A stretch of DNA of 12,099 nt. Source: a bacterium. GTDB taxonomy: Bacteria > Krumholzibacteriota > Krumholzibacteria > LZORAL124-64-63. Positions 1 through 12,099 of the stretch are shown here, one piece after another. A program made the position numbers and the translations under genes. The notes below the pieces were generated by a model, which was given only the letters and a program-made list of their open reading frames with translations, ran no database searches and was not told the origin of the DNA. The stretch covers positions 1-12,099 of the forward strand of contig VGXH01000017.1 in assembly GCA_016873405.1 (NCBI GenBank), given 5' to 3'. Within the stretch, counting starts at the first letter, position 1. Each line of letters begins with the position of its first letter.

Positions 1-3000
1 CCGGCGCCGAACGGCGATGACGACGGCCGTCGCGGCCGTCGCGGCCGTCAGCGCCAGGGCCGTCGCCACCGCCGGCGGCCGCCGCGCGGGGCGGGCGCCG
101 GGCGCCATGACGCTGCCGTCGCCCACGAGCACGAACTCCGCCCCGGTCGCCTGCCACCCGTCCGCATCCTGCCGCGCCAGGGCGGCGCGCTGCGCCGACT
201 GCAACGCCGCGGCCGCCGGCAGGCCGCCGCGCCAGGCGCGGTAGAAGGCCAGCAGGAGGCGTCGCGCGGCGGCGTCCGGCACATCGGCCTGGGCGGCCAG
301 CACGCAGTCGGCGCCGGCGTGGAGGAAGGCCTGGGTCAATCCGGTCACGCCTTCGCCGCGCGCCAGTTCGCCCCCGGCCGAACGGCACGAAGCCAACGTC
401 ACCAGCGTCGCGCGCAGCGGCAGCGAAACGGCCTCGTGCCACTGCAGCAAACCGTCATCGGCGCCCCCCGCGTCCGGCGCGACCGCGGGCGGGTTGAGCA
501 CCAGGTACGACCGGCGGGGGTCGGCGTCGTCCGCGTGCCCGTGGGCCGCGAAGTGCACGACCTGGGCGCTCGCCAGCAGCGCCCGCAGCCCGGATCCCTC
601 CGTGGCGTCCGCGTCCCGCAGCAGTCGCGCGCCGGGGAAGAGGTCCGCGACCATGGCCGCTTCGCGTTCGGCGTGGTGCAGTCGGGGCAGGGGTGCGCCG
701 GTGAACGGATGCACCCGCCCCCGCGCCGCGGCGCCGCGCTTGCGGTCGCCTTCGCAGCCGACCGCCAGCAGCGGCAGGGGCGACGGGTCGACCATCTCCT
801 GCCGCGCCGCGCCGCGCGCGCGCAGCGCCCGCAGCGTGCCGAGCGAAGGCGCGACGAAGACGGCGTGACCCTCGCCCAGGGGGCCGTCGGCCGAGCGCAG
901 GACGCCGAAGGGCAGCCTGTGCAACAGGCCGTCCGGGACGACGACGAGGGTCTCGCCGGGACGCAGTTCCGCGGCCGCCGGCGCGACCAGCCCCTCGTGC
1001 AGCCCCCGGGCGGCCATGGTCGGCACCGGAGGGGGTGCGTCACCGCGGAGGCGGAGCCGCAGGTACAGGTCGACGCGGGTCTCGATCTCGTCGCGCGGCG
1101 GCAGCGCGTGGGCGCACACGGCGTCGCGGGTCGCGCTGAACAGCCAGGAGCCTTCGGCGCCCAGCACGTAGTACAGGAGCCGTTCGCCCGGGCGCAGCGC
1201 CGCCAGCAGGGAATCGGGAGACTCGGGCGCGGCGTAGAGTTCGCGCGCGTGCGGGGCGCCGCTGGCCGCCAGGCGCAGACCCAGCAGCCCGTGCTCACGC
1301 TCCAGGTCGCGGGCGCGCTGCCCCAGATCGCGGCGCGTCAGCGTGTCCAGGCCGCCGTCCTGAAGCCGGGCCTGCACGTGCGCCAGGCGGGAGACGAGAT
1401 CCCGTTCCCGCCGGGCCGATTCCGGCGACGGCCCCTCGCCGCCGCGGGCCAGCGCTTCGCGCAGACGGTCGGCCAGCACCCCGGCGCGGGCGCGATCGGC
1501 GGTCGCCAGCGCCATCGGCGCGCCGCGCCCGCCGCGCCGGGCCTGCAAGGCGATCAGGCTCTCGTAGGGAGCGGCGGCCGGCGCCGGCAGGTGACGACGC
1601 AGTTCGTCGACGCCCACGCGCCGCCGCAGCGATTCGCTCGCGGTCACCGATTCGGTCAGCAGCCGCTCGGCCGCCGCCGTGTCGCCCCGCGCCAGGGCGA
1701 GGCCGCCGAGGTCCGCCAGGCACTGCCACTCCAACTCGCTGAGGCCGCCCTCGCGCGCCAGCGCCAGCGCGCGCGCGGCCAGGGCGCTGGCGCTGTCCGG
1801 CTCGCCGTGAGCCCGCGAGCGCAGCAGCAGCGTCCGCGCGCGCGCCGGCCACTCGCCGTCGTCGGCCAGGAGCGCGGAGGCATCGGCCAGCAGGCGGCGA
1901 GCGTCAGCGCGGCGACCCTGCGCCAGGTGGAGCGCAGCCAGGTCGTCCAGCGCGTCGATCATGGCCACCTTGTCCCGCCAGCGACGGGCGATGGTCAGCG
2001 CGCGGCGGGCGTGGAGCTCCGCGAGCGCCGGATTCCCCGCCGCCGCGTACACGGCCTGGAGCGCCCCCATCGCTTCCCGGGCGATCTCCTCGGAACGCGC
2101 CGCCTCCGCCAGGGTCAGCGCCCGCTCGCCCTCGTCGCGGGCGGATTCGAGGTCGCCCAACTGGAGGTGGACCCAGGCGATGCTCACGCGGGTCCGGGCT
2201 TCACCCGCGCCGTCGTCGATGGCCGCGCAGGTCTCCAGGGCCCGGTGATGGTCCACCAGCGCCCGCCGGTAGTCGCCCTGCAGGGCGGCGAGCTGCCCCA
2301 GCGAATTGAGACACCAGGCGGCGCTCATGCGGTCGCCGAGTTCCTCGTTCAGCGCCAGGGCTCGCCGATAGGCGGCGGCGGCGCGGTCCAGGTCACCCAG
2401 GTAGTGGCAGGCCAGGGCCAGGCCGCCCTCGACCCAATTGCGGATGTGCGGCGTCCGCAGGCGTTCACAGATCAGGCGGCAACGTTCGTAGTGGGACACG
2501 GCCTGGGCGTACTCGCCGGTCTGCAGCAGCACGTAGGCCAGGCGCTGGCGGGCGGCCAGTTCGCCGCGCTCGTGGCCCCCGGCCACGAGAACGTCGCAGG
2601 CCTGGCGGAAGTGCTCGGCGGCGGCATCGCGGCGTCCTTCGGCATCGGCCGCGGCGCCGAGGCCGGTCTGGACGGCGCCCAGCAGGGACGGGCGTCCGCA
2701 GGCAAGGGCGATCTTGTGCGCCCGGGCCAGATGGCCTCGGGCCGCGGCCACGTCTCGTGCTTCGGTCTCCTGGTAGGCCAGGTTGGCCAGGCACATCGCC
2801 GCCCGGCCGCTGTCGCCCAATGCGGTCGCCATGTCCACGGCTCGCGCGTAGAAGGCCAGCGATTCGGCGAAGCGCCGCTGGCGGCTCTTGACGGCGCCCA
2901 GTCCGTTGAGCGCGTCGCAGGCGATCTGCCGCCAGCCCCGGGCCTGGGCTTCGTCCAACGCCAGGCGATAGAGGCTGTCGGCCTCGGCGTGTCCACCCGC

Positions 3001-3582
3001 AAGGTAGGCGATGCCGGCCGCCAGCGTCCGCGCGTCCGCCCGCAGGCGACCGCCGGCGGCGGCCGACAGCCGCAGGACGGCGACCCGCGCGCAGGCCGTC
3101 CGCGCGGAGTCGGGCTCCTCGGCGCGCAGGCGGGCGCGCGCACAGGCGAGCCAGGCGATGGCGGCGCCCGCGGTGTCGCCGCGGGCGGAGGCCCGCGCCG
3201 CGAGTCGGGCCCAGGCCGCCGCCGCCGCGCCGTGTCGTTCGGCCGCGCGCTGGCGCGCCGCCTCGAGGTGGAGGCGGGCGTCGTCCCCGCGGAGTCGGCC
3301 GGCGAGCGCCGCCAGGGCGCTGTCCTCGCGGCAGAGGCGGTTCGCCGCTTCGAGCGCTCCCTCGACATGCGGCAGGACATAGCCGTCGGCGAGCAGGCTA
3401 AGGTAGTGCGCGCCGGCGGCCGTGGCGGCGCCTCCGTCCAGCAGCGACTGCCCCGCTTCCCAGGTGGCCAGCTGCACCCGCGCCGGCGCAACGGGTGCGG
3501 CGGCGGCATGTCCCCACGCCGCCGCGCCCAGCAGGAGCGCCGCCACGGGGACGGTCGCCCGGCCATTCCGCCCTGCACCCAA
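1..3582 (-). CDS. Exported TPR-CHAT domain protein with C-terminal membrane segment (C-terminal end outside window)
   Basis: Translating the minus strand gives one open frame of 1194 codons running off the left edge without a stop. Residues 9-24 form a hydrophobic signal-peptide core after Arg5/Arg8, with an Ala-rich cleavage area near 26-29. About ten TPR-like helical repeats occupy roughly residues 190-640. A CHAT (caspase HetF associated with TPRs) domain spans about 795-1155: the His motif VVHFAAHG puts the catalytic His at 1014 and LASCRSAGG puts the catalytic Cys at 1066, a family-like spacing; FVLVGD closes the domain. Residues about 1170-1191 are an Ala/Val-rich membrane segment followed by Arg-Arg-Arg, so the stop is probably very near. 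I chose the TTG at 3582 because GGAGGGG lies 8 nt upstream; an in-frame ATG at 3639 would add 19 residues but overlaps the likely -10 box. CHAT proteins are cysteine proteases or protease-like scaffolds; the substrate here is unknown. Family assignment is firm, start is moderate. Confidence 0.88.
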   Translation of the reverse strand, partial: MGAGRNGRATVPVAALLLGAAAWGHAAAAPVAPARVQLATWEAGQSLLDGGAATAAGAHYLSLLADGYVLPHVEGALEAANRLCREDSALAALAGRLRGDDARLHLEAARQRAAERHGAAAAAWARLAARASARGDTAGAAIAWLACARARLRAEEPDSARTACARVAVLRLSAAAGGRLRADARTLAAGIAYLAGGHAEADSLYRLALDEAQARGWRQIACDALNGLGAVKSRQRRFAESLAFYARAVDMATALGDSGRAAMCLANLAYQETEARDVAAARGHLARAHKIALACGRPSLLGAVQTGLGAAADAEGRRDAAAEHFRQACDVLVAGGHERGELAARQRLAYVLLQTGEYAQAVSHYERCRLICERLRTPHIRNWVEGGLALACHYLGDLDRAAAAYRRALALNEELGDRMSAAWCLNSLGQLAALQGDYRRALVDHHRALETCAAIDDGAGEARTRVSIAWVHLQLGDLESARDEGERALTLAEAARSEEIAREAMGALQAVYAAAGNPALAELHARRALTIARRWRDKVAMIDALDDLAALHLAQGRRADARRLLADASALLADDGEWPARARTLLLRSRAHGEPDSASALAARALALAREGGLSELEWQCLADLGGLALARGDTAAAERLLTESVTASESLRRRVGVDELRRHLPAPAAAPYESLIALQARRGGRGAPMALATADRARAGVLADRLREALARGGEGPSPESARRERDLVSRLAHVQARLQDGGLDTLTRRDLGQRARDLEREHGLLGLRLAASGAPHARELYAAPESPDSLLAALRPGERLLYYVLGAEGSWLFSATRDAVCAHALPPRDEIETRVDLYLRLRLRGDAPPPVPTMAARGLHEGLVAPAAAELRPGETLVVVPDGLLHRLPFGVLRSADGPLGEGHAVFVAPSLGTLRALRARGAARQEMVDPSPLPLLAVGCEGDRKRGAAARGRVHPFTGAPLPRLHHAEREAAMVADLFPGARLLRDADATEGSGLRALLASAQVVHFAAHGHADDADPRRSYLVLNPPAVAPDAGGADDGLLQWHEAVSLPLRATLVTLASCRSAGGELARGEGVTGLTQAFLHAGADCVLAAQADVPDAAARRLLLAFYRAWRGGLPAAAALQSAQRAALARQDADGWQATGAEFVLVGDGSVMAPGARPARRPPAVATALALTAATAATAVVIAVRRR
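24..50. repeat. Three tandem 9-bp repeats inside the CHAT gene
   Basis: The unit cggccgtcg occurs at 24-32 and 33-41, with a one-mismatch third copy at 42-50. It is in frame and encodes an Ala/Thr/Val-rich repeat within the C-terminal membrane segment of the CHAT protein. Likely a slippage-prone low-complexity stretch; copy number could vary between strains without breaking the frame. Confidence 0.6.
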
Positions 3583-3588
3583 GGCCGA

Positions 3589-3597
3589 ATCCCCTCC
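3589..3597 (-). promoter_or_regulatory. Strong Shine-Dalgarno site deciding the TTG start of the CHAT gene
   Basis: On the minus strand GGAGGGG (within 3597-3591) is followed by 8 nt and then TTG at 3582-3580. This is a near-ideal ribosome binding site and spacing. The alternative in-frame ATG at 3639-3637 has no comparable purine-rich site in front of it. Confidence 0.6.
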
Positions 3598-3634
3598 GTC
3601 GGCTCCGCCGGCCGGTCGGCCGATCGCCGCCTTC

Positions 3635-3643
3635 AGCATAGCA
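3635..3643 (-). promoter_or_regulatory. Putative extended -10 promoter for the CHAT gene
   Basis: Reading the minus strand, TGCTATGCT is an extended -10 element (TGn plus TATGCT, four of six matches to TATAAT). No convincing -35 hexamer is found 16-18 nt upstream, which is tolerated with an extended -10. It would start transcription near 3628 and give a leader of about 46 nt before the TTG at 3582. It is one of few AT-containing patches in a GC-rich gap. Prediction only. Confidence 0.35.
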
Positions 3644-3705
3644 CGCCGATCCGGACGACCCGAGCGGTCGTTGCCGCGACCCGGGGCGGACCGCCGCAGT
3701 GGCCG

Positions 3706-3735
3706 CTGGCAGGGTTCGCCGTCATCCCCTAGGAT
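3706..3735 (+). promoter_or_regulatory. Putative sigma70-type promoter for the rightward cluster
   Basis: CTGGCA (3706-3711, four of six matches to TTGACA) and TAGGAT (3730-3735, four of six to TATAAT, with the key A and final T kept) are separated by 18 nt. Initiation would fall at about 3742-3743, the A of the preferred ATG, implying a leaderless or nearly leaderless mRNA. The competing reading is that AGGA (3731-3734) is instead a Shine-Dalgarno site 8 nt before the ATG at 3743. Sequence alone cannot decide. Confidence 0.3.
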
Positions 3736-3742
3736 GTCCGCC

Positions 3743-6700
3743 ATGCACCCCGATCCCGTCGCCCGCGCCGCCGGCGCGCCCCCCGAGTTCCGGGGGTTCG
3801 GGCATCTGATGCCCTACCGCGTCCAGGAGATACTCCTGGTCGCTTCGGAGTACGACGCCTACACGCTGGAGGAGGGCGGGCGGCTGACCGAGCTGCTGCT
3901 GAACGAGTATCGCGAGCTGAACCTCAGCTACCCGCCCCATGTGGCGCGCGCGGCGAGCGGAGACGAGGCCGTCAAGCTGCTGGAGGCGCACCGCTACGAT
4001 CTGGTGGTGACCATGACGCGCCTGGGCGACATGTCGGCCGCCGAGCTGGCGCGACGCATCCGCAGCCGCACGGCCGAGGTGCCGATCTACACGCTGGCCT
4101 TCAGCCCCCGCGAACTGCAGCACCTCCAGGAATCCGACAACCAGGGCAGCATCGACCGCTGCTTCCTGTGGAACGGCGACGTGCGGCTGCTGCTGGCGAT
4201 CATCAAGGTCTGCGAGGACGAGCGCAACGTGGCGCACGACACGCGCTACGGCGAGGTGCGCTGCATCCTGCTGGTCGAGGATTCCGTGCGCTTCTACTCC
4301 GCCTTCCTGCCGCTTCTCTACGGGGAGGTGCTGGAACAGACGCAGTCGCTGATGGCCGAGGGCATCAACCTGAGCCATCGCCTGCTGCGGCTGCGGGCGC
4401 GGCCGAAGGTCCTGCTGGCCCGCACGTTCGAGGAGGCGTGGGACCTCTACTCCAGCTACAAGGACTCGCTGCTGGGAGTGATCGCCGACGGGCGCTTCCC
4501 GCGGCAGGGGGTCCCGCGCGACGATGCGGGCGTGGAGTTCATCCGGCGGGTCAAGTACGTCGATCCGCACACGCCGGCGGTGCTGCAGTCGACCGACGGC
4601 GACCTGGAGGCCGTGGCGCACCAGGTCGGGGCCGGATTCGTCCGCAAGCGGTCGCGGACGCTGCTGCAGGACCTGCGGCGGTTCATGCTCGACAACTTCG
4701 GCTTCGGCGAGTTCGTGTTCCGCCTGCCGGACGGGACCGAGGTCGGTCGCGCCGCGGATCTCAAGGGCCTGGCCCGGCAGCTGCGCACGGTGCCGGCGGC
4801 GTCGGTCCGGCACCACGCCTCGCACGACCACTTCTCCAACTGGCTGCGGGCGCGCACGGAGTTCCAGTTGGCGGCGGCCATCCGGCCGCGCAAGGTGACG
4901 GAGTTCGAGCACGTTGAGGACCTGCGCGAGTTCCTGGTGCAGACGATCAATCGCTTCCGCAGCGAGGCGCAGCGCGGCGTGGTCGCCGATTTCTCGCGGC
5001 GCCACTTCGACACCCTCAGCGCCTTCGTGCGCATCGGCGGCGGCTCCCTGGGCGGCAAGGGGCGGGGGCTGGCGTTCGTCAACTCGATCCTGCACGGCTA
5101 CGGCATCCACGATCGCTTCCCGGGCACCGTCATCCGCGTGCCGACCACGGCGGTCATCGGCACGAACGTCTTCGACACCTTCTTCGATCAGGGCGAGCTG
5201 CGCGCGCGGGTGCAGGCGGATCTGGACGACGAGCAGGTGGTCGCCGCCTGCCTGGCGCACAAGCTGCCGCCGGAGATCTACGGCGACCTGGAGGCGTTCC
5301 TGGACCAGGTGCGCTACCCGCTGGCGGTGCGCTCGTCGAGCCTGCTGGAGGACAGCCAGTTCCAGCCGTTCGCCGGCGTCTACGCCACCTACATGCTGGC
5401 CAACAACCACCCCGACCTGAAGGTGCGCCTGGACCAGCTCTGCGACGCGATCAAGCTGGTCTACGCCTCGACCTACTCGCGGGCGGCCAAGAGCTACGTC
5501 GAGGCCACCGCCAACCGGATCGAGGAGGAGAAGATGGCGGTGATCGTGCAGCAGGTCGTGGGCCGGCGGCACGGACACTACGACTATCCGCACTTCTCCG
5601 GGGTGGGGCTGTCGGCCAACTACTATCCGGCCGGCGATCTGAAGCCCGAGGACGGCGTCGTCACCGTGGCGCTGGGACTCGGGCGCACGGTGGTCGGGGG
5701 CGGCAAGGCGCTGCGCTTCAGCCCCGCGCGGCCGCTGGCCCTGCCGCAGTTCAACACGCTGAACGACTGGCTGCGCGAGAGCCAGCGCGAGTTCTACGCC
5801 GTGGACGTCAGCCGCCCCGACCAGTACCCCGGTCCGCGCGACGACTACAACCTGGCCTTGCTGGATCTGGCCGCGGCCGAAGCGCACGGCACGCTGGCGC
5901 CTGTCGGTTCGGTGCACGTGCCGGCCGACAACATGATCTACGACGGACTCGGGCGCGCAGGGGAGCGCCTGGTCTCGTTCGCCGGCGTGCTGAAGGCGCG
6001 AGCCTTCCCGCTGGCGGAGATCACCGCGCTGCTGTTGGATCTCGGCCGGCGCACGATGAGCGCCGAGGTCGAGATCGAGTTCGCCGTCGTGCTGGGCGAC
6101 GGCCAGGACGTGCCGCACCAGTTCGGCTTCCTGCAGATACGGCCGCTGGCCGCCGGGCTGGTGGCGCCGGCGGTGCCGCCGGAACTGCTGGCGGCGCCCG
6201 ACGCGCTGGTCGCCACCACCACGGCCCTCGGCAACGGCCGTTCCGCGGACATCCGCGACATCCTCTATGTGCCGCGGGCGGGCTTCGACCGCGCGCGCTC
6301 GCCGGAGGCGGCGGCGGAGATCGCCGCCTTCAATCGGCAGTTGGCCGCCGAGGGGCGGCCGTACCTGCTGGCCGGCCCGGGGCGCTGGGGCTCGTCGGAC
6401 CGCTGGCTGGGCATCCCGGTCCGCTGGGACCAGATTTCCGGGGCGCGCGTGATCGTGGAGGCCCCGCTGGACGGGTTCGCGGTCACCCCCAGCCAGGGCT
6501 CCCATTTCTTCCAGAATCTGACCTGTTTCCAGGTGGGCTACCTGACCGTCGGCGGCAACGAGGGGCCGGACCGTCTGGATTGGGACTGGCTGGACGCGCA
6601 GGCGGCGCTGGCGACCGGCCGCCACGCCCGGCTGCTGCGGCTGCCCGAGCCGTTGACGGTGCTCATCGACGGGCGCTCGCGGCGCGGCCTGGTGCTGAGG

Positions 6701-6811
6701 CCTGAGGCCGGGGCGGGGGCGCCGCGCGAGGGGAGCGCGCGCGACGGGAGCGCGCGCGACGGGGCGGCCGGGGCGACGGCCGGGACCGGAATCCCCGCGC
6801 AGGAAGGTTGA
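3743..6811 (+). CDS. Tandem receiver-like / PEP-pyruvate-binding (PPDK N-terminal type) fusion protein
   Basis: A 1022-residue protein from the ATG at 3743 (AGGA 8 nt upstream; ATG at 3734 would add three residues). Residues about 28-165 look like a degenerate receiver: Ser-Glu replaces the acidic pair, Met91 sits near the phosphoacceptor position and Trp143 near the usual Lys. Residues about 173-315 look like an intact receiver (Glu179/Asp180, Asp249, Ser283/Thr284, Lys302). A linker with HDHFSNWLRAR (361-371) leads to a PPDK/PEP-synthase ATP-grasp domain (about 425-803) with GGSLGGKGRG (Lys439), VRSSSLLED (Arg530), IVQQVVG (601-607) and closing QIRPL. The C-terminal module has GPGRWGSSD (878-886) and SQGSHFFQN (917-925), then a Gly/Ala/Arg tail. 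No swivel-domain phosphohistidine motif or PEP/pyruvate barrel is recognisable, so a complete PPDK or PEP-synthase reaction is unlikely. The role is probably regulatory or a phosphotransfer not yet defined. Domain calls are firm, function unknown. Confidence 0.88.
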   Translation: MHPDPVARAAGAPPEFRGFGHLMPYRVQEILLVASEYDAYTLEEGGRLTELLLNEYRELNLSYPPHVARAASGDEAVKLLEAHRYDLVVTMTRLGDMSAAELARRIRSRTAEVPIYTLAFSPRELQHLQESDNQGSIDRCFLWNGDVRLLLAIIKVCEDERNVAHDTRYGEVRCILLVEDSVRFYSAFLPLLYGEVLEQTQSLMAEGINLSHRLLRLRARPKVLLARTFEEAWDLYSSYKDSLLGVIADGRFPRQGVPRDDAGVEFIRRVKYVDPHTPAVLQSTDGDLEAVAHQVGAGFVRKRSRTLLQDLRRFMLDNFGFGEFVFRLPDGTEVGRAADLKGLARQLRTVPAASVRHHASHDHFSNWLRARTEFQLAAAIRPRKVTEFEHVEDLREFLVQTINRFRSEAQRGVVADFSRRHFDTLSAFVRIGGGSLGGKGRGLAFVNSILHGYGIHDRFPGTVIRVPTTAVIGTNVFDTFFDQGELRARVQADLDDEQVVAACLAHKLPPEIYGDLEAFLDQVRYPLAVRSSSLLEDSQFQPFAGVYATYMLANNHPDLKVRLDQLCDAIKLVYASTYSRAAKSYVEATANRIEEEKMAVIVQQVVGRRHGHYDYPHFSGVGLSANYYPAGDLKPEDGVVTVALGLGRTVVGGGKALRFSPARPLALPQFNTLNDWLRESQREFYAVDVSRPDQYPGPRDDYNLALLDLAAAEAHGTLAPVGSVHVPADNMIYDGLGRAGERLVSFAGVLKARAFPLAEITALLLDLGRRTMSAEVEIEFAVVLGDGQDVPHQFGFLQIRPLAAGLVAPAVPPELLAAPDALVATTTALGNGRSADIRDILYVPRAGFDRARSPEAAAEIAAFNRQLAAEGRPYLLAGPGRWGSSDRWLGIPVRWDQISGARVIVEAPLDGFAVTPSQGSHFFQNLTCFQVGYLTVGGNEGPDRLDWDWLDAQAALATGRHARLLRLPEPLTVLIDGRSRRGLVLRPEAGAGAPREGSARDGSARDGAAGATAGTGIPAQEG
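6731..6760. repeat. Perfect 15-bp tandem duplication in the tail of the receiver/PPDK-like gene
   Basis: The unit gggagcgcgcgcgac occurs at 6731-6745 and again at 6746-6760. It is in frame and duplicates a Gly-Ser-Ala-Arg-Asp pentapeptide in the disordered, Gly/Ala-rich C-terminal tail after the GSHFFQ module. It looks like recent slippage; the tail beyond about residue 985 is probably dispensable linker. Confidence 0.75.
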
Positions 6812-6827
6812 TTCTCCTTGCCCGCGC

Positions 6828-6847
6828 CGCGGCGGCCCGCGATTTTT
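6828..6847 (+). terminator. Possible short intrinsic terminator or attenuator before glutamate dehydrogenase gene
   Basis: CGCGG (6828-6832) pairs with CCGCG (6837-6841) around a 4-nt CGGC loop and is followed at once by ATTTTT (6842-6847), the longest T run in this gap. The structure starts 17 nt after the stop of the receiver/PPDK-like gene. The stem is short (5 bp, all G-C), so it may only partly attenuate read-through to the downstream gene. Competing pairings in the same GC-rich stretch, such as the palindrome at 6825-6834, weaken the case. Confidence 0.4.
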
Positions 6848-6863
6848 CGGCCACCAAGGCACC

Positions 6864-6883
6864 GGGCGCGGCCTGATGCGCCC
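6864..6883 (+). promoter_or_regulatory. Inverted repeat in the leader of the glutamate dehydrogenase gene
   Basis: GGGCGC (6864-6869) and GCGCCC (6878-6883) form a perfect 6-bp stem with an 8-nt loop. It ends 24 nt before the start codon and has no T run, so it is not a terminator. It could be an operator or an mRNA leader hairpin, but a stem of this size also arises by chance in such GC-rich DNA. Confidence 0.2.
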
Positions 6884-6907
6884 AGGCTTCAACACGGGGT
6901 GACGAGG

Positions 6908-8197
<1,290 letters not shown>

Positions 8198-8199
8198 GC

Positions 8200-10974
8200 A
8201 TGGACCGCGCGCGCGGCGGGCAGCCTGACGACTCCCGCCGCGCGTTCGCGGCCGTCCCGTGGCGCGAACTGCTGGACGTGATCCGCCAGGGTCGCGGCCG
8301 GCAGTTCGTTCGCGTTTCCCGCAAGATGCTCAACCACCTCTGCTCGATCGGACTGAGCGAGGCGCAGGTCATGCTGGCGGAGGTGGACACCGGTCCCGCC
8401 GGGGCGGCCCGCCGCGAGGGCCGACTCGACGCCGGCCGGCCCGGTTCCGCGCGCCCGAGCCAGACCAAGGTGCCGGGAACCCGCCTGCCGCTGGAGCAAT
8501 CCCCCCTGATGACCGGCGCTCCGTTCGAGCTGGCCGCCCGCTACCTGCCCGACGAGGAGATCTCCGAACGCTTGCAGCGCTGGCTGAAGGAGGACGAGGC
8601 CAGCTTCTTCGGCACCGTGGTGGCCGATCCCCGCAGCACGATGCCGGAGATCGCCGAGGCCATCCGCCGCTACAACGACGTCCTGCTCGGGCGCAGCGGC
8701 CTGGCGCCCAGCACGCTCAAGAGCCTGCGCGTCTCGCTCATCCAGCGCTTCCTGACCGAACAGCTCGACTACATCAACGTGGCGAAGGAGGTGGCGCGGA
8801 TCACCGACTTCCACGGCCTGCTCGACCGCGTGATCATGACGCGGGGCTGCTACGGCAAGCTGGGCGGCAAGGCCGCCGGCCTGCTCCTGGCCGGCTGGAT
8901 CCTGGAGCGGCCCGAGGCCGCGGAGATGGGCGTGGGCACCGTCAAGACGCCGCGGACCTGGTACGTCGTCTCCGACGTGATCATGGACTTCATCCGCCTG
9001 AACGATCTTGACGACGTCATGGACCAGAAGTTCAAGGACATCACGCAGGTCCGCCGCGAGTACCCCAACCTGGTCCAGCTGTTCAAGAACAGCCCGTTCC
9101 CGCCCGATCTGGTGGAAGGGCTCTCGCGCGCGCTGGACTACTTCGGCGACGTGCCGCTGATCATCCGCAGCTCGAGCCTTCTGGAGGATCGCTTCGGCAC
9201 CGCCTTCTCGGGCAAGTACAAGAGCCTGTTCCTGCCCAACCGCGGGTCCCGCGCCGACCGCCTGGCGGCGCTGCAGGACGCGGTCGCGGAGGTGTGGGCC
9301 TCGATCCTCGGTCCCGACCCGATCGAGTATCGGCGCGAGCGGGGACTGCAGGAGTTCGTCGAGGAGATGGGCATCCTGATCCAGGAGGTCGTGGGCACGC
9401 GCGTGGGCCGCTACTGGCTGCCCGCCTTCGCGGGCGTGGCCTTCAGCCTGAACGAGTTCCGCTGGTCGCCGCGCATCCGGCGCGAGGACGGATTGCTGCG
9501 CCTGGTGCCGGGGCTGGGCACGCGCGCGGTCGACCGCGTCGGCGACGACTTCCCGGTGCTGGCGGTGCCCGGCCAACGCGGACTGCGCGCGCACGCCTCG
9601 CTGCAGGAGACCCTGCGCTACAGCCCGCGGCAGGCCGACGTCATCAACCTCGAGACGGCGAGCTTCGAGACGGTGCCGCTGGCCGATCTCCTGAAGGAGG
9701 CCGGCGCGGACTACCCGCTCGTCGAACGCGTCTTCTCCGTTCTGCGCGGCGGGCATCTGCAGCAGGTGCAGAGGCTGATGCTGGATCCCGAGCACGACGA
9801 TCTGGTCGCCGATCTGCGGGGCCTGCTGGACGGCACCGACTTCGTGACCCGCATCCAGGCCCTGCTCAAGACGCTGGCGATGTACCTGCAGTCGCCCGTG
9901 GACATCGAGTTCGCCCACGACGGCAAGGATTTCTACCTGGTGCAATGCCGCCCGCAGGCGATGTCGGGCGACAACGCGCCGTCGCCGATCCCCCACGACC
10001 TGCGTCCGGAGGACGTGTTGTTCACGGCCGACCGCTTCGTCTCCAACGGCCAGGTGCCGGACATCACGCATGTCGTGTACGTGGTGCCGGAGGCGTACGC
10101 CGAGTTGCCCGACCGGGAGACCATGGCCTCGGTCGGTCGTGTCGTGGGGGCGCTGAACGGGCTGCTGCGCAAGCGCTCGTTCATCCTGGTGGGGCCGGGG
10201 CGCTGGGGCAGCCGCGGCGACATCAAGCTGGGCGTGGCGGTGACCTACGCCGACATCAACAACACGGCCATGCTGGTCGAGGTGGCGCGGCGCCGGGGCG
10301 ACTACGTGCCGGACCTGAGCTTCGGAACCCACTTCTTCCAGGACCTGGTGGAGGCCGGCATCCGCTACCTGCCGCTCTACCCGGACGACGCAGGCATCGT
10401 CTTCCGGGAGGACTTCCTGCTGGGCGCGCCCAACCGCCTGGCGGAGCTGCTGCCCGACCACGCGCCGCTGGAGCACTGCGTGCGGGTGGTCGACGTGCCG
10501 GCGGCCTCGCGCGGGCGCGTGCTGCGGATCTACCAGAACGCGGAACTGGACCATGCGGTGGCCGTCCTCGAAGCGCCTGGCGACCGGCGCGCGACGGGCG
10601 CCGCGCGCGCGACGGCGGCGGCGGCCGACTCGCCGCTGAGACACGCCCGCTGGCGCCGACAGGTGGCCGAGGAACTGGCGCGGTCGCTGGACCCGGACAC
10701 GAGCGGAGTGGTGGCCGTGCACCTGCGCGGATCGGTCGCGGACGGTCGCGCCACCGCCGAGAGCGACATCGACCTGGTGGTCCGCTTCGGCGGCGACGAC
10801 GGCCAGCGCGCGCGCCTGGAAGTCTGGCTGGACGGCTGGAACCGGGCGCTGGCGGTGCTCAACCAGCAGAGCACGGGCGTGCGCGTCGAGCGCCTGCTGG
10901 ACGCGGTCATCGTCGCCGCCGACGATCACGAGGTGGCGGGCGGCCCCCGCCTGCCGCTCAAGGACGAGCTCTGA
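8200..10974 (+). CDS. PEP-pyruvate-binding (PPDK N-terminal type) protein with C-terminal nucleotidyltransferase domain
   Basis: A 924-residue protein whose ATG follows the dehydrogenase stop by 2 nt, suggesting translational coupling. The N-terminus (about 20-60) has a helical segment RVSRKMLNHL, followed by a variable linker. The PPDK-type ATP-grasp domain spans about 205-590: YGKLGGKAAG (Lys224), IIRSSSLLED (Arg323), ILIQEVVG (392-399) and closing VQCRPQ. It then has VGPGRWGS (664-671) and SFGTHFFQD (707-715), the same module as its upstream paralogue. After an Ala/Arg-rich linker, residues about 810-924 form a minimal nucleotidyltransferase fold: LRGSVADGRAT followed by SDIDLVV, giving Gly844-Ser845 and the metal-binding pair Asp856/Asp858. 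Such domains transfer a nucleotide to a protein or small molecule; the target here is unknown, though the adjacent dehydrogenase is an obvious candidate. No swivel-domain or PEP-barrel motif is seen. It lacks the receiver domains of the paralogue. Domains are firm; function is inference. Confidence 0.9.
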   Translation: MDRARGGQPDDSRRAFAAVPWRELLDVIRQGRGRQFVRVSRKMLNHLCSIGLSEAQVMLAEVDTGPAGAARREGRLDAGRPGSARPSQTKVPGTRLPLEQSPLMTGAPFELAARYLPDEEISERLQRWLKEDEASFFGTVVADPRSTMPEIAEAIRRYNDVLLGRSGLAPSTLKSLRVSLIQRFLTEQLDYINVAKEVARITDFHGLLDRVIMTRGCYGKLGGKAAGLLLAGWILERPEAAEMGVGTVKTPRTWYVVSDVIMDFIRLNDLDDVMDQKFKDITQVRREYPNLVQLFKNSPFPPDLVEGLSRALDYFGDVPLIIRSSSLLEDRFGTAFSGKYKSLFLPNRGSRADRLAALQDAVAEVWASILGPDPIEYRRERGLQEFVEEMGILIQEVVGTRVGRYWLPAFAGVAFSLNEFRWSPRIRREDGLLRLVPGLGTRAVDRVGDDFPVLAVPGQRGLRAHASLQETLRYSPRQADVINLETASFETVPLADLLKEAGADYPLVERVFSVLRGGHLQQVQRLMLDPEHDDLVADLRGLLDGTDFVTRIQALLKTLAMYLQSPVDIEFAHDGKDFYLVQCRPQAMSGDNAPSPIPHDLRPEDVLFTADRFVSNGQVPDITHVVYVVPEAYAELPDRETMASVGRVVGALNGLLRKRSFILVGPGRWGSRGDIKLGVAVTYADINNTAMLVEVARRRGDYVPDLSFGTHFFQDLVEAGIRYLPLYPDDAGIVFREDFLLGAPNRLAELLPDHAPLEHCVRVVDVPAASRGRVLRIYQNAELDHAVAVLEAPGDRRATGAARATAAAADSPLRHARWRRQVAEELARSLDPDTSGVVAVHLRGSVADGRATAESDIDLVVRFGGDDGQRARLEVWLDGWNRALAVLNQQSTGVRVERLLDAVIVAADDHEVAGGPRLPLKDEL

Positions 10975-10990
10975 CGCGACCGGATCCGGG

Positions 10991-11031
10991 CGCGCGGCCG
11001 GGCCGGCGTCGGCCGCGCGACGGCGGCCCGG
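10991..11031. terminator. Overlapping inverted repeats between convergent genes
   Basis: CGCGCGGCC (10991-10999) and GGCCGCGCG (11011-11019) form a perfect 9-bp stem with an 11-nt loop; CCGGGCC (10998-11004) and GGCCCGG (11025-11031) form a competing 7-bp stem. They lie in the 88-bp gap between two convergent genes, where a bidirectional terminator would be expected. No T run follows on either strand, so any termination would be non-canonical or Rho-dependent. Confidence 0.3.
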
Positions 11032-11062
11032 TCGTTCCGGCCGCGCCCCCGCGCGCAGGATC

Positions 11063-11383
11063 TCAGCGGCTCGAGGCGAGCCGCCGCAGCTTGCGCTTGC
11101 GCCGGTGAATCGCCTTGCGCGCGGCCTGCAGGGCCTCGCGGTCGCCGCTCGTCAGCGCGTCCAGGCGCGCGACCTTCAGACGGCGGATCTCCGCCTTGAT
11201 GGCGCGCTTGCCGAGTCCGGGTTCGATGTGGCGGTGCGGCCGCTCGATGTGCAGCCGCTGCGCCAGGAGATCGACCAGCTCGTCCTTGCGCAGCCCGATC
11301 ACGCCCTTGACGTCCGGGCACTTCTCCTTCGCCATCTCCCGCAGGTCGGCGACGCGCGTTTTCTGGAGCTCGTGGAAATCCAT
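11063..11383 (-). CDS. Small Rho N-terminal-domain-like basic protein
   Basis: A 106-residue protein starting at the ATG at 11383-11381, with GGAGG 7 nt upstream. Residues about 4-45 resemble the Rho termination factor N-terminal (Rho_N, SAP-like) helical domain, with LQKTRVADLREMAKEK and a GLRKDELVDLLAQ segment typical of the fold. Residues about 63-106 are strongly basic and predicted helical, ending in an Arg/Lys-rich stretch (IHRRKRKLRRL), consistent with nucleic-acid binding. It has none of the ATPase domain of true Rho (about 420 residues), so it is not Rho itself. Small stand-alone proteins with this arrangement are generally annotated only as Rho-N domain proteins; whether they bind RNA or DNA here is not shown by the sequence. 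It is convergent to the nucleotidyltransferase fusion gene and divergent from the MmgE/PrpD gene, so it forms its own transcription unit. Confidence 0.8.
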   Translation of the reverse strand: MDFHELQKTRVADLREMAKEKCPDVKGVIGLRKDELVDLLAQRLHIERPHRHIEPGLGKRAIKAEIRRLKVARLDALTSGDREALQAARKAIHRRKRKLRRLASSR

Positions 11384-11682
11384 GTGACGCCCTCCGCGTG
11401 CGTGGGGAAGCAGGTCCGGGGACCGATTCCGGCGGCGGGCGCGGCCCGCCGCGCCGTCCGATCCTAGCGCAGCGCCCGGGCCCCGGGCAAGGGCGGTCCG
11501 CGATGCGTGTCCGCGATCCGCCGGACGCCGGCCGTCGCGGCGACGGGCGGGCGACGGGCTGGCGGCGGCGGCCCGTCCGTGTCATGTTGCGGCCGTCCCG
11601 CGCCCGGCCGGCGGCCCGCGACCGTCCCGCCGCGCCACCGGCCGGGCGCGCCGCGCCCCACCTTCAGCCCGCGAGGATTCCG
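11384..11682. other. Divergent intergenic region between Rho-N-like and MmgE/PrpD genes
   Basis: This 299-bp gap holds the putative Rho-N promoter and its palindrome. A short direct repeat, tccgcgat at 11497-11504 and 11510-11517, lies just outside that promoter. The rest, to the ribosome site GAGGA at 11673-11677, is very GC-rich; I see no convincing promoter for the rightward gene, no RNA gene and no supported small coding frame. Confidence 0.5.
11461..11490 (-). promoter_or_regulatory. Putative sigma70-type promoter of the Rho-N-like gene with a palindrome over it
   Basis: On the minus strand TTGCCC (11490-11485, four of six matches) and TAGGAT (11466-11461) are separated by 18 nt. Transcription would begin near 11454, leaving a leader of about 70 nt. 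A palindrome, GCCCGGG (11474-11480) and CCCGGGC (11482-11488), lies across the spacer and the -35 hexamer, where a repressor could block polymerase. The same TAGGAT box with an 18-bp spacer appears in front of the rightward cluster. Confidence 0.4.
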
Positions 11683-12099
11683 ATGAGCGCTGCCGCCCGT
11701 CCCAGCCTGACCCGCCGCCTGGCCGAGTACGCCGTGGGCCTCCACTACGAGGACCTGCCCGCCGCCGACGTCAAGGAGGCCAAGCGCTTCCTGCTCGATT
11801 CGGTCGGCTGCGCGCTGGCGGCCGTCCGCAATGCGGACATGGCGGCCATGTACCGCTTCATCCGGCGGCAGGGGGGCACGCCCGAGGCCACGCTCATCGG
11901 ATCGGGCGAGCGCACCAACGCGGCGAACGCGGCGCTGATGAACAGCCTGCTGATCCGGGCGCTGGACTACAACGACATCTTCTGGGAGCAGGACCCGAGC
12001 CACCCGTCCGACATCATCTTCGCCGCGATCTCGCCCGCCGAGGCCCGCGGGCTGGACGGGAGGGACGCGCTGGTCGGCATCATGATCGCCTACGAGCTC
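11683..12099 (+). CDS. MmgE/PrpD family protein, N-terminal part (runs off right edge)
   Basis: The frame opens at the ATG at 11683, 5 nt after GAGGA (11673-11677), and stays open for 139 codons to the end of the window. It shows the family's N-terminal hallmarks: LDSVGCALAA in the first helices, NAALMNSLLIRALDYND around residues 84-100, and HPSD near 107-110 in the expected place, followed by IIFAAISPAEA and GIMIAYEL. The family includes 2-methylcitrate dehydratase (PrpD, methylcitrate cycle of propionate degradation), cis-aconitate decarboxylase and iminodisuccinate epimerase, and normally has about 450-500 residues, so roughly 70% of the protein is missing here. The exact substrate cannot be set from this part. 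A gene for methylcitrate synthase or methylisocitrate lyase just beyond the right edge would favour PrpD. Confidence 0.88.
   Translation, partial: MSAAARPSLTRRLAEYAVGLHYEDLPAADVKEAKRFLLDSVGCALAAVRNADMAAMYRFIRRQGGTPEATLIGSGERTNAANAALMNSLLIRALDYNDIFWEQDPSHPSDIIFAAISPAEARGLDGRDALVGIMIAYEL

Follow-up and report, generated by a model that had tools for sequence, protein, structure and literature searches.

The A-GDH1-B locus

The window analysed here is a stretch of 12,099 nucleotides (contig VGXH01000017.1 of assembly GCA_016873405.1, positions 1 to 12,099 of the forward strand) from a bacterium of the Krumholzibacteriota, in which a gene for glutamate dehydrogenase (GDH), GDH1, lies between two genes, A and B, for large proteins related to pyruvate phosphate dikinase (PPDK). 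All three genes are intact and run in the same direction on the plus strand. The original prediction that A and B both carry a PPDK-type ATP-grasp domain and the same C-terminal module, and flank a complete GDH with a gap of 2 nt (between GDH1 and B), was confirmed. The features of the three genes are as follows.

3743..6811, plus strand: A, with a receiver at about residues 27-163 that lacks the Asp, an intact receiver at about 172-321, a PPDK-type ATP-grasp at about 417-805, and a C-terminal module with GPGRWG and GSHFFQ (His921) (Pfam, model, fold matches, residue counts)
4487..4489, plus strand: codon of Asp249, the phospho-acceptor position of the second receiver of A (alignment A2; codon checked)
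6497..6514, plus strand: GSHFFQ motif of A with the invariant His921 (alignment A2; translation checked)
6908..8197, plus strand: GDH1, a hexameric-type glutamate dehydrogenase, closest to the archaeal-type GdhA (Pfam, NF040817, PDB matches)
8200..10974, plus strand: B, with a helical N-terminal region, a PPDK-type ATP-grasp at about residues 180-590, a C-terminal module at about 603-790 (His711), and a minimal nucleotidyltransferase (NTase) at about 812-924 (Pfam, model, fold matches, residue counts)
10324..10341, plus strand: GTHFFQ motif of B with the invariant His711 (alignment A1; translation checked)

GDH1 has both ELFV domains at full length in Pfam, scores 477.8 bits against NF040817 (under the cut-off of 750), and matches the structures 1gtm and 1euz. 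It is distinguished below from GDH2, the NADP-specific GdhA type, which scores 753.6 bits against NF006929 (cut-off 536).

A family separate from PPDK

The Pfam domain PPDK_N was matched by both A (4.3e-35) and B (8.9e-54), and the ATP-site residues are invariant in their alignments, namely Lys439, Arg530, Glu779, Gln798 and Arg800 in all 58 sequences of alignment A2 for A, and Lys224, Arg323, Glu570, Gln582 and Arg584 in all 100 sequences of alignment A1 for B. In profile alignment, the E...LQxR end of the ATP site is in register with that of ordinary PPDKs, and a profile of mixed A, B and C proteins (C being a third paralogue described below) aligned reliably through the ATP-grasp only. Since its catalytic residues are kept, the ATP-grasp of A and B probably binds ATP.

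What follows the ATP-grasp differs from PPDK and phosphoenolpyruvate (PEP) synthase, with which A and B share PPDK_N and the invariant Lys, Arg, Glu, Gln and Arg. No PEP/pyruvate-binding barrel was found among the Pfam domains of A or B, and GPGRWG and G(S/T)HFFQ replace the TSHAA-type swivel motif. In structure models built from 100 aligned sequences for B and 58 for A (mean pLDDT 86.3 and 80.9, respectively), the ATP-grasp is followed by the module alone in A and by the module and the NTase in B. Rifampin phosphotransferase also differs: the module of A and B is not recognisable by sequence, their genes are GDH-linked, receivers or an NTase are attached, and the module comes directly after the ATP-grasp (ending at about 805 in A and 590 in B), leaving no room for a rifampin-binding domain. 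The corresponding model NF041857 scored only 20.5 for A and 30.6 for B, against a cut-off of 999. Furthermore, neither HisKA nor HATPase_c was matched in A or B by Pfam at E 0.1. A and B are a separate family that combines a PPDK-type ATP-grasp with a C-terminal module lacking a Pfam match, and not "truncated PPDK-like" proteins as first described; that they are degraded PPDKs was ruled out by the full conservation of the ATP site and by the lengths of the listed relatives, most of which match those of A and B.

Association with GDH genes

For B, we examined the loci of the best 80 of 580 confirmed matches, a sample that consequently leans towards the B of the window. Of these loci, 62 carry GDH1 upstream of B in the same orientation, as do 44 of the 45 that offer more than 4.5 kb of room; in the one miss (L031), GDH1 is on the other strand. 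The gap between the two genes is below 2.4 kb in 60 of the 62 cases and 5.0 and 5.3 kb in the other two. According to record titles, in which organism names may be wrong (the genomes are largely metagenome-assembled genomes, MAGs), the arrangement occurs in Krumholzibacteria, Eisenbacteria, Latescibacterota, Myxococcota, Gemmatimonadetes, Acidobacteriota, Melioribacter relatives, Calditrichota, Zixibacteria, Cloacimonadota, Fermentibacteria, Aminicenantes, Phycisphaerae and Neomarinimicrobiota.

We also surveyed 80 genomes from the phylum of a relative of the window (the genome of L001), with counts of genomes uncorrected for kinship. Among 59 B places of at least 850 bits, 45 have GDH1 (E at most 1e-150) within 6 kb upstream, and at five of the 14 misses (L086, L088, L089, L094 and L096) GDH1 is cut by the contig end. 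GDH1 is present in 51 of the 80 genomes, all 51 of which have a B-type match of at least 500 bits, such a match being found in 57 of the 80. At 850 bits, B is found in 46 of these 51; in the remaining five, the B-type matches are either shorter and NTase-less or partial. GDH1 is missing from three of the 49 genomes with B at this threshold. Conversely, 52 of 62 GDH1 places have a paralogue within 6 kb. Several genomes (e.g., G065, G068 and G079) carry two GDH1-B pairs, one with a B of the window type and one with a longer B. In addition, B-like matches that are shorter and do not reach the NTase were seen tail to tail with the main B (L034:12741-15107 on the minus strand, G021:C99:14128-16245 and G075:C6:24248-26305).

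In even draws of genomes, B was found in 19 of 198 from Bacteroidota and 38 of 149 from Acidobacteriota. GDH1 lies upstream of B in 14 of the 18 loci fetched from the 19 Bacteroidota places (excluding the locus of the query itself; misses L113, L124, L127 and L128) and in 18 of the 20 fetched from the 42 Acidobacteriota places (misses L133 and L135). The sequence of L113 and L135 stops about 2 kb or less behind B. The original prediction was to be refuted if the genes were rarely neighbours in related genomes, which is clearly not the case. It held in part: the link between paralogues and GDH extends across many phylum labels, but the exact order A-GDH1-B was seen mainly in the clade of the window (L001, L002, L004 and others). 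Outside that clade, the genes usually occur as GDH1-(C-)B and as NADP-GDH-A, and three Acidobacteriota loci have GDH1-A-B.

A is associated with GDH in its own right. The 30 Bacteroidota A loci, taken from 33 full-length A places and in some cases from the same genome, have the NADP-type GDH2 within the 1.5-kb flanks in 24 cases. In seven of them (L160, L161, L162, L163, L167, L168 and L172), a further archaeal-type GDH, about 50% identical to GDH1, lies across A from the NADP-GDH. In five Bacteroidota genomes (G124, G148, G217, G241 and G245), a pair of A-type genes shares a contig at a distance of no more than about 8 kb. Of 20 A loci picked by hand from the 80-genome phylum at A-type places not adjacent to B, 16 lie within about 3 kb of a GDH, which is of the NADP type in 15 and GDH1 in one, and on the same strand in 14. 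In an informal control by eye, the 31 ordinary PEP-utiliser genes of 10 genomes all lay more than 20 kb from A, B or C, the nearest being at 20.2 kb, after exclusion of two weak matches (E about 1e-5), one of which is probably an ordinary PEP synthase.

C, of about 580 amino acids, consists of the ATP-grasp and the module only. Of the 45 roomy loci among the best 80 matches, 30 have C between GDH1 and B, and C was seen in only four of the 20 Acidobacteriota loci; the window has no C in this position, but A instead. A resembles C (35-44% over the aligned part) more than B (21-24%). Among 51 C-B pairs, C runs past the first possible start of B by 4 nt in 11 and by 8 nt in 16 (27 together), and the overlap is 1-50 nt in 38, although first-start positions may lie upstream of the true starts. 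In five proteins of 1631-1647 amino acids, one of them named Ignavibacteriae, C is fused to B with both His motifs present. Matches to B also carry the names of Rosettibacter firmus, Melioribacter sp. Ez-97 and Stygiobacter electus, which are cultured organisms.

C-terminal module and accessory domains

The C-terminal modules of A and B are homologous (profile-profile E 4.9e-25), and both carry GPGRWG and G(S/T)HFFQ. The His of the latter motif is invariant in 58 of 58 A, 100 of 100 B and 41 of 41 C sequences, the latter located by the motif. In the models of A and B, DSSP assigns this His to the start of a helix, with one beta-strand before the helix and another after it, and a His at a helix start between beta-strands is the arrangement in swivelling phosphohistidine domains. 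The ranges of the fold matches extend to the end of the swivelling phosphohistidine domain in some chains, without a match in sequence. Based on the fold and the position of the motif, the module is probably a diverged swivelling phosphohistidine-like domain, and a phosphohistidine step is tentatively plausible.

Pfam places a single receiver in A and the NTase in B, and fold matches to the model of A indicate two receiver folds. In the second, Glu179, Asp249, Ser283 and Lys302 are each conserved in 58 of 58 sequences, so that the acidic pair, the acceptor Asp, the Ser/Thr and the Lys of a receiver are all present. The first still has the fold of a receiver, with Met at the presumed phospho-acceptor position in 55 of 58 sequences. 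The NTase motif of B is conserved at Gly844 and Ser845 (100 of 100), Asp856 (93), Asp858 (92) and Asp901 (94); the B of the window has all five residues, as expected of a minimal nucleotidyltransferase, and matches NTP_transf_2 above the cut-off. Of three N-termini of full-length B proteins tried, one gave a GAF match, and only a weak one (E 0.04); this region, weakly GAF-like in longer B relatives, would resemble sensor-linked GAF domains. Because the constant part of the family is the ATP-grasp with the His module, while the NTase and the weakly GAF-like N-terminus come and go, the latter two are likely to be inputs or extra outputs.

Flanking genes

1-3744, minus strand: TPR-CHAT gene, oriented divergently from A, with the CHAT domain at the C-terminus of the protein
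11063-11383, minus strand: small Rho_N-like gene (106 amino acids), under the Pfam cut-off
from 11683: MmgE/PrpD gene

The longest possible start of the TPR-CHAT gene overlaps the start of A, and its true start is therefore probably further inside. GC content reaches 0.79 at this gene, and the long open frames that run antisense throughout the window resemble artefacts of composition. A counterpart of the Rho_N-like protein, at 59% identity, also lies 3' of B in locus L004.

Possible role in the control of GDH

Since two types of GDH are paired, in distant lineages, with different paralogues, a functional link of this family with GDH is very likely. We lean towards the view that A-GDH1-B is one variant of a widespread gene cluster whose PPDK-type ATP-grasp proteins are dedicated partners of GDH, most likely acting as ATP-driven regulators. 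The link is rather more probably regulatory than a pathway step, as the receivers and the NTase argue. In the proposed mechanism, the ATP-grasp would bind ATP and pass a phosphoryl group to the invariant His of the module (921 in A, 711 in B), the state of this His might be tuned by the receivers of A, the NTase of B and the weakly GAF-like N-terminus of longer B proteins, and the phosphorylated state would be relayed to GDH or a partner protein, thereby changing GDH activity. It is unlikely, though conceivable, that the paralogues form a new class of ATP-grasp histidine autokinases, with a relay from His to the receiver Asp of A that sets GDH activity directly without a classical histidine kinase. 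The original proposal of carbon/nitrogen control fits the receivers and the NTase, whereas its suggestion of PEP sensing has no basis in the sequence, as Pfam gives no PEP/pyruvate-binding domain.

Several observations weigh against ATP-driven regulation of GDH. The phosphohistidine chemistry relies on a fold range and not on a residue-level match: the module had no Pfam match in four test segments even at E 10, its comparisons with PEP-utiliser domains gave no match in sequence (E 0.07 and 0.45), a forced global profile alignment did not place its His on the PPDK His, and the match of PEP synthase 2ols to B ends near chain residue 424 (297 residues). Nor are GDH and the paralogues always neighbours, since ten of the 62 GDH1 places have no paralogue within 6 kb (some at contig ends), six of the 30 Bacteroidota A loci (L150, L151, L154, L155, L166 and L171) lack GDH2 within 1.5 kb, and four of the 20 picked A loci have no GDH in the fetched stretch. 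Two of these four have a phosphofructokinase within 5 kb, downstream of A (L219:5868-10176, where it follows directly, and L223:5736-13371), and A-type proteins may serve further central enzymes as well. The NTase and GAF-like parts are also absent in some clades. Lastly, the solved relatives nearest in fold are small-molecule dikinases, namely PPDK, PEP synthase, rifampin phosphotransferase and HpeI (PMC12167813), and a shared metabolic step instead of regulation is possible.

Under such a metabolic explanation, the ATP-grasp proteins would phosphorylate or otherwise activate a GDH-linked small molecule (e.g., 2-oxoglutarate or glutamate), with GDH as a pathway partner. The association with GDH is indeed as tight as in a pathway operon, but no substrate domain was seen in the family, the PEP/pyruvate barrel being absent from the Pfam results and C having only the ATP-grasp and the module, and receivers and an NTase would be unusual for a pathway enzyme; we consider this explanation doubtful. 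Nucleotidyltransferases do control nitrogen enzymes in the case of GlnE and GlnD, and B might similarly put a nucleotide on GDH, its ATP-grasp merely sensing nucleotides. Both cases tie an NTase to a nitrogen enzyme, and the motif residues are kept in the alignment of B. However, the NTase of B is a minimal one on an ATP-grasp protein, its presumed target is GDH rather than glutamine synthetase or PII, and in relatives behind GDH1 (e.g., L141-L148) the match to B ends before it, near residue 920-930 of 1068. Moreover, no NTase was found in the scanned A and C proteins, in which the ATP-grasp residues and the His are nevertheless invariant, which makes control by nucleotidyl transfer improbable. 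It is more improbable still that an old co-regulated operon has merely kept its neighbourhood while its products work separately. Co-regulation or shared transfer can preserve gene order, and counts from MAGs are not independent, yet two types of GDH pair with different paralogues in distant phyla, no GDH1 was detected without a B-type match in the 80 genomes, and C and B overlap or are fused.

Protein regulators of GDH are known in GarA of mycobacteria and KidO of Caulobacter, which are unrelated and have no ATP-grasp; GDH as the controlled enzyme, presumed here, is common to them and to A and B, which differ by their ATP-grasp. The combination of receiver and PPDK (REC-PPDK) that A represents is mentioned in PMC5847659, and receivers without the Asp joined to a PPDK output are noted in PMC4395418, in passages that give neither a function nor a link to GDH, nor the B or C types. 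By title or the start of the abstract, no report tying PPDK-like proteins to GDH was found in the open-access literature, preprints and most subscription papers being outside this scope. GDH and PEP synthase are named together in PMC12096838, where they are separate hits of an unrelated screen.

GDH stands at a main junction between the flows of carbon and nitrogen, and the clusters described here point to an undescribed control of nitrogen uptake or release in many little-studied bacteria. If this is true, a dedicated ATP-driven control of GDH would explain nitrogen control in lineages known mainly from MAGs, and would provide a first function for the REC-PPDK proteins, which are listed without one in the census passages cited above.
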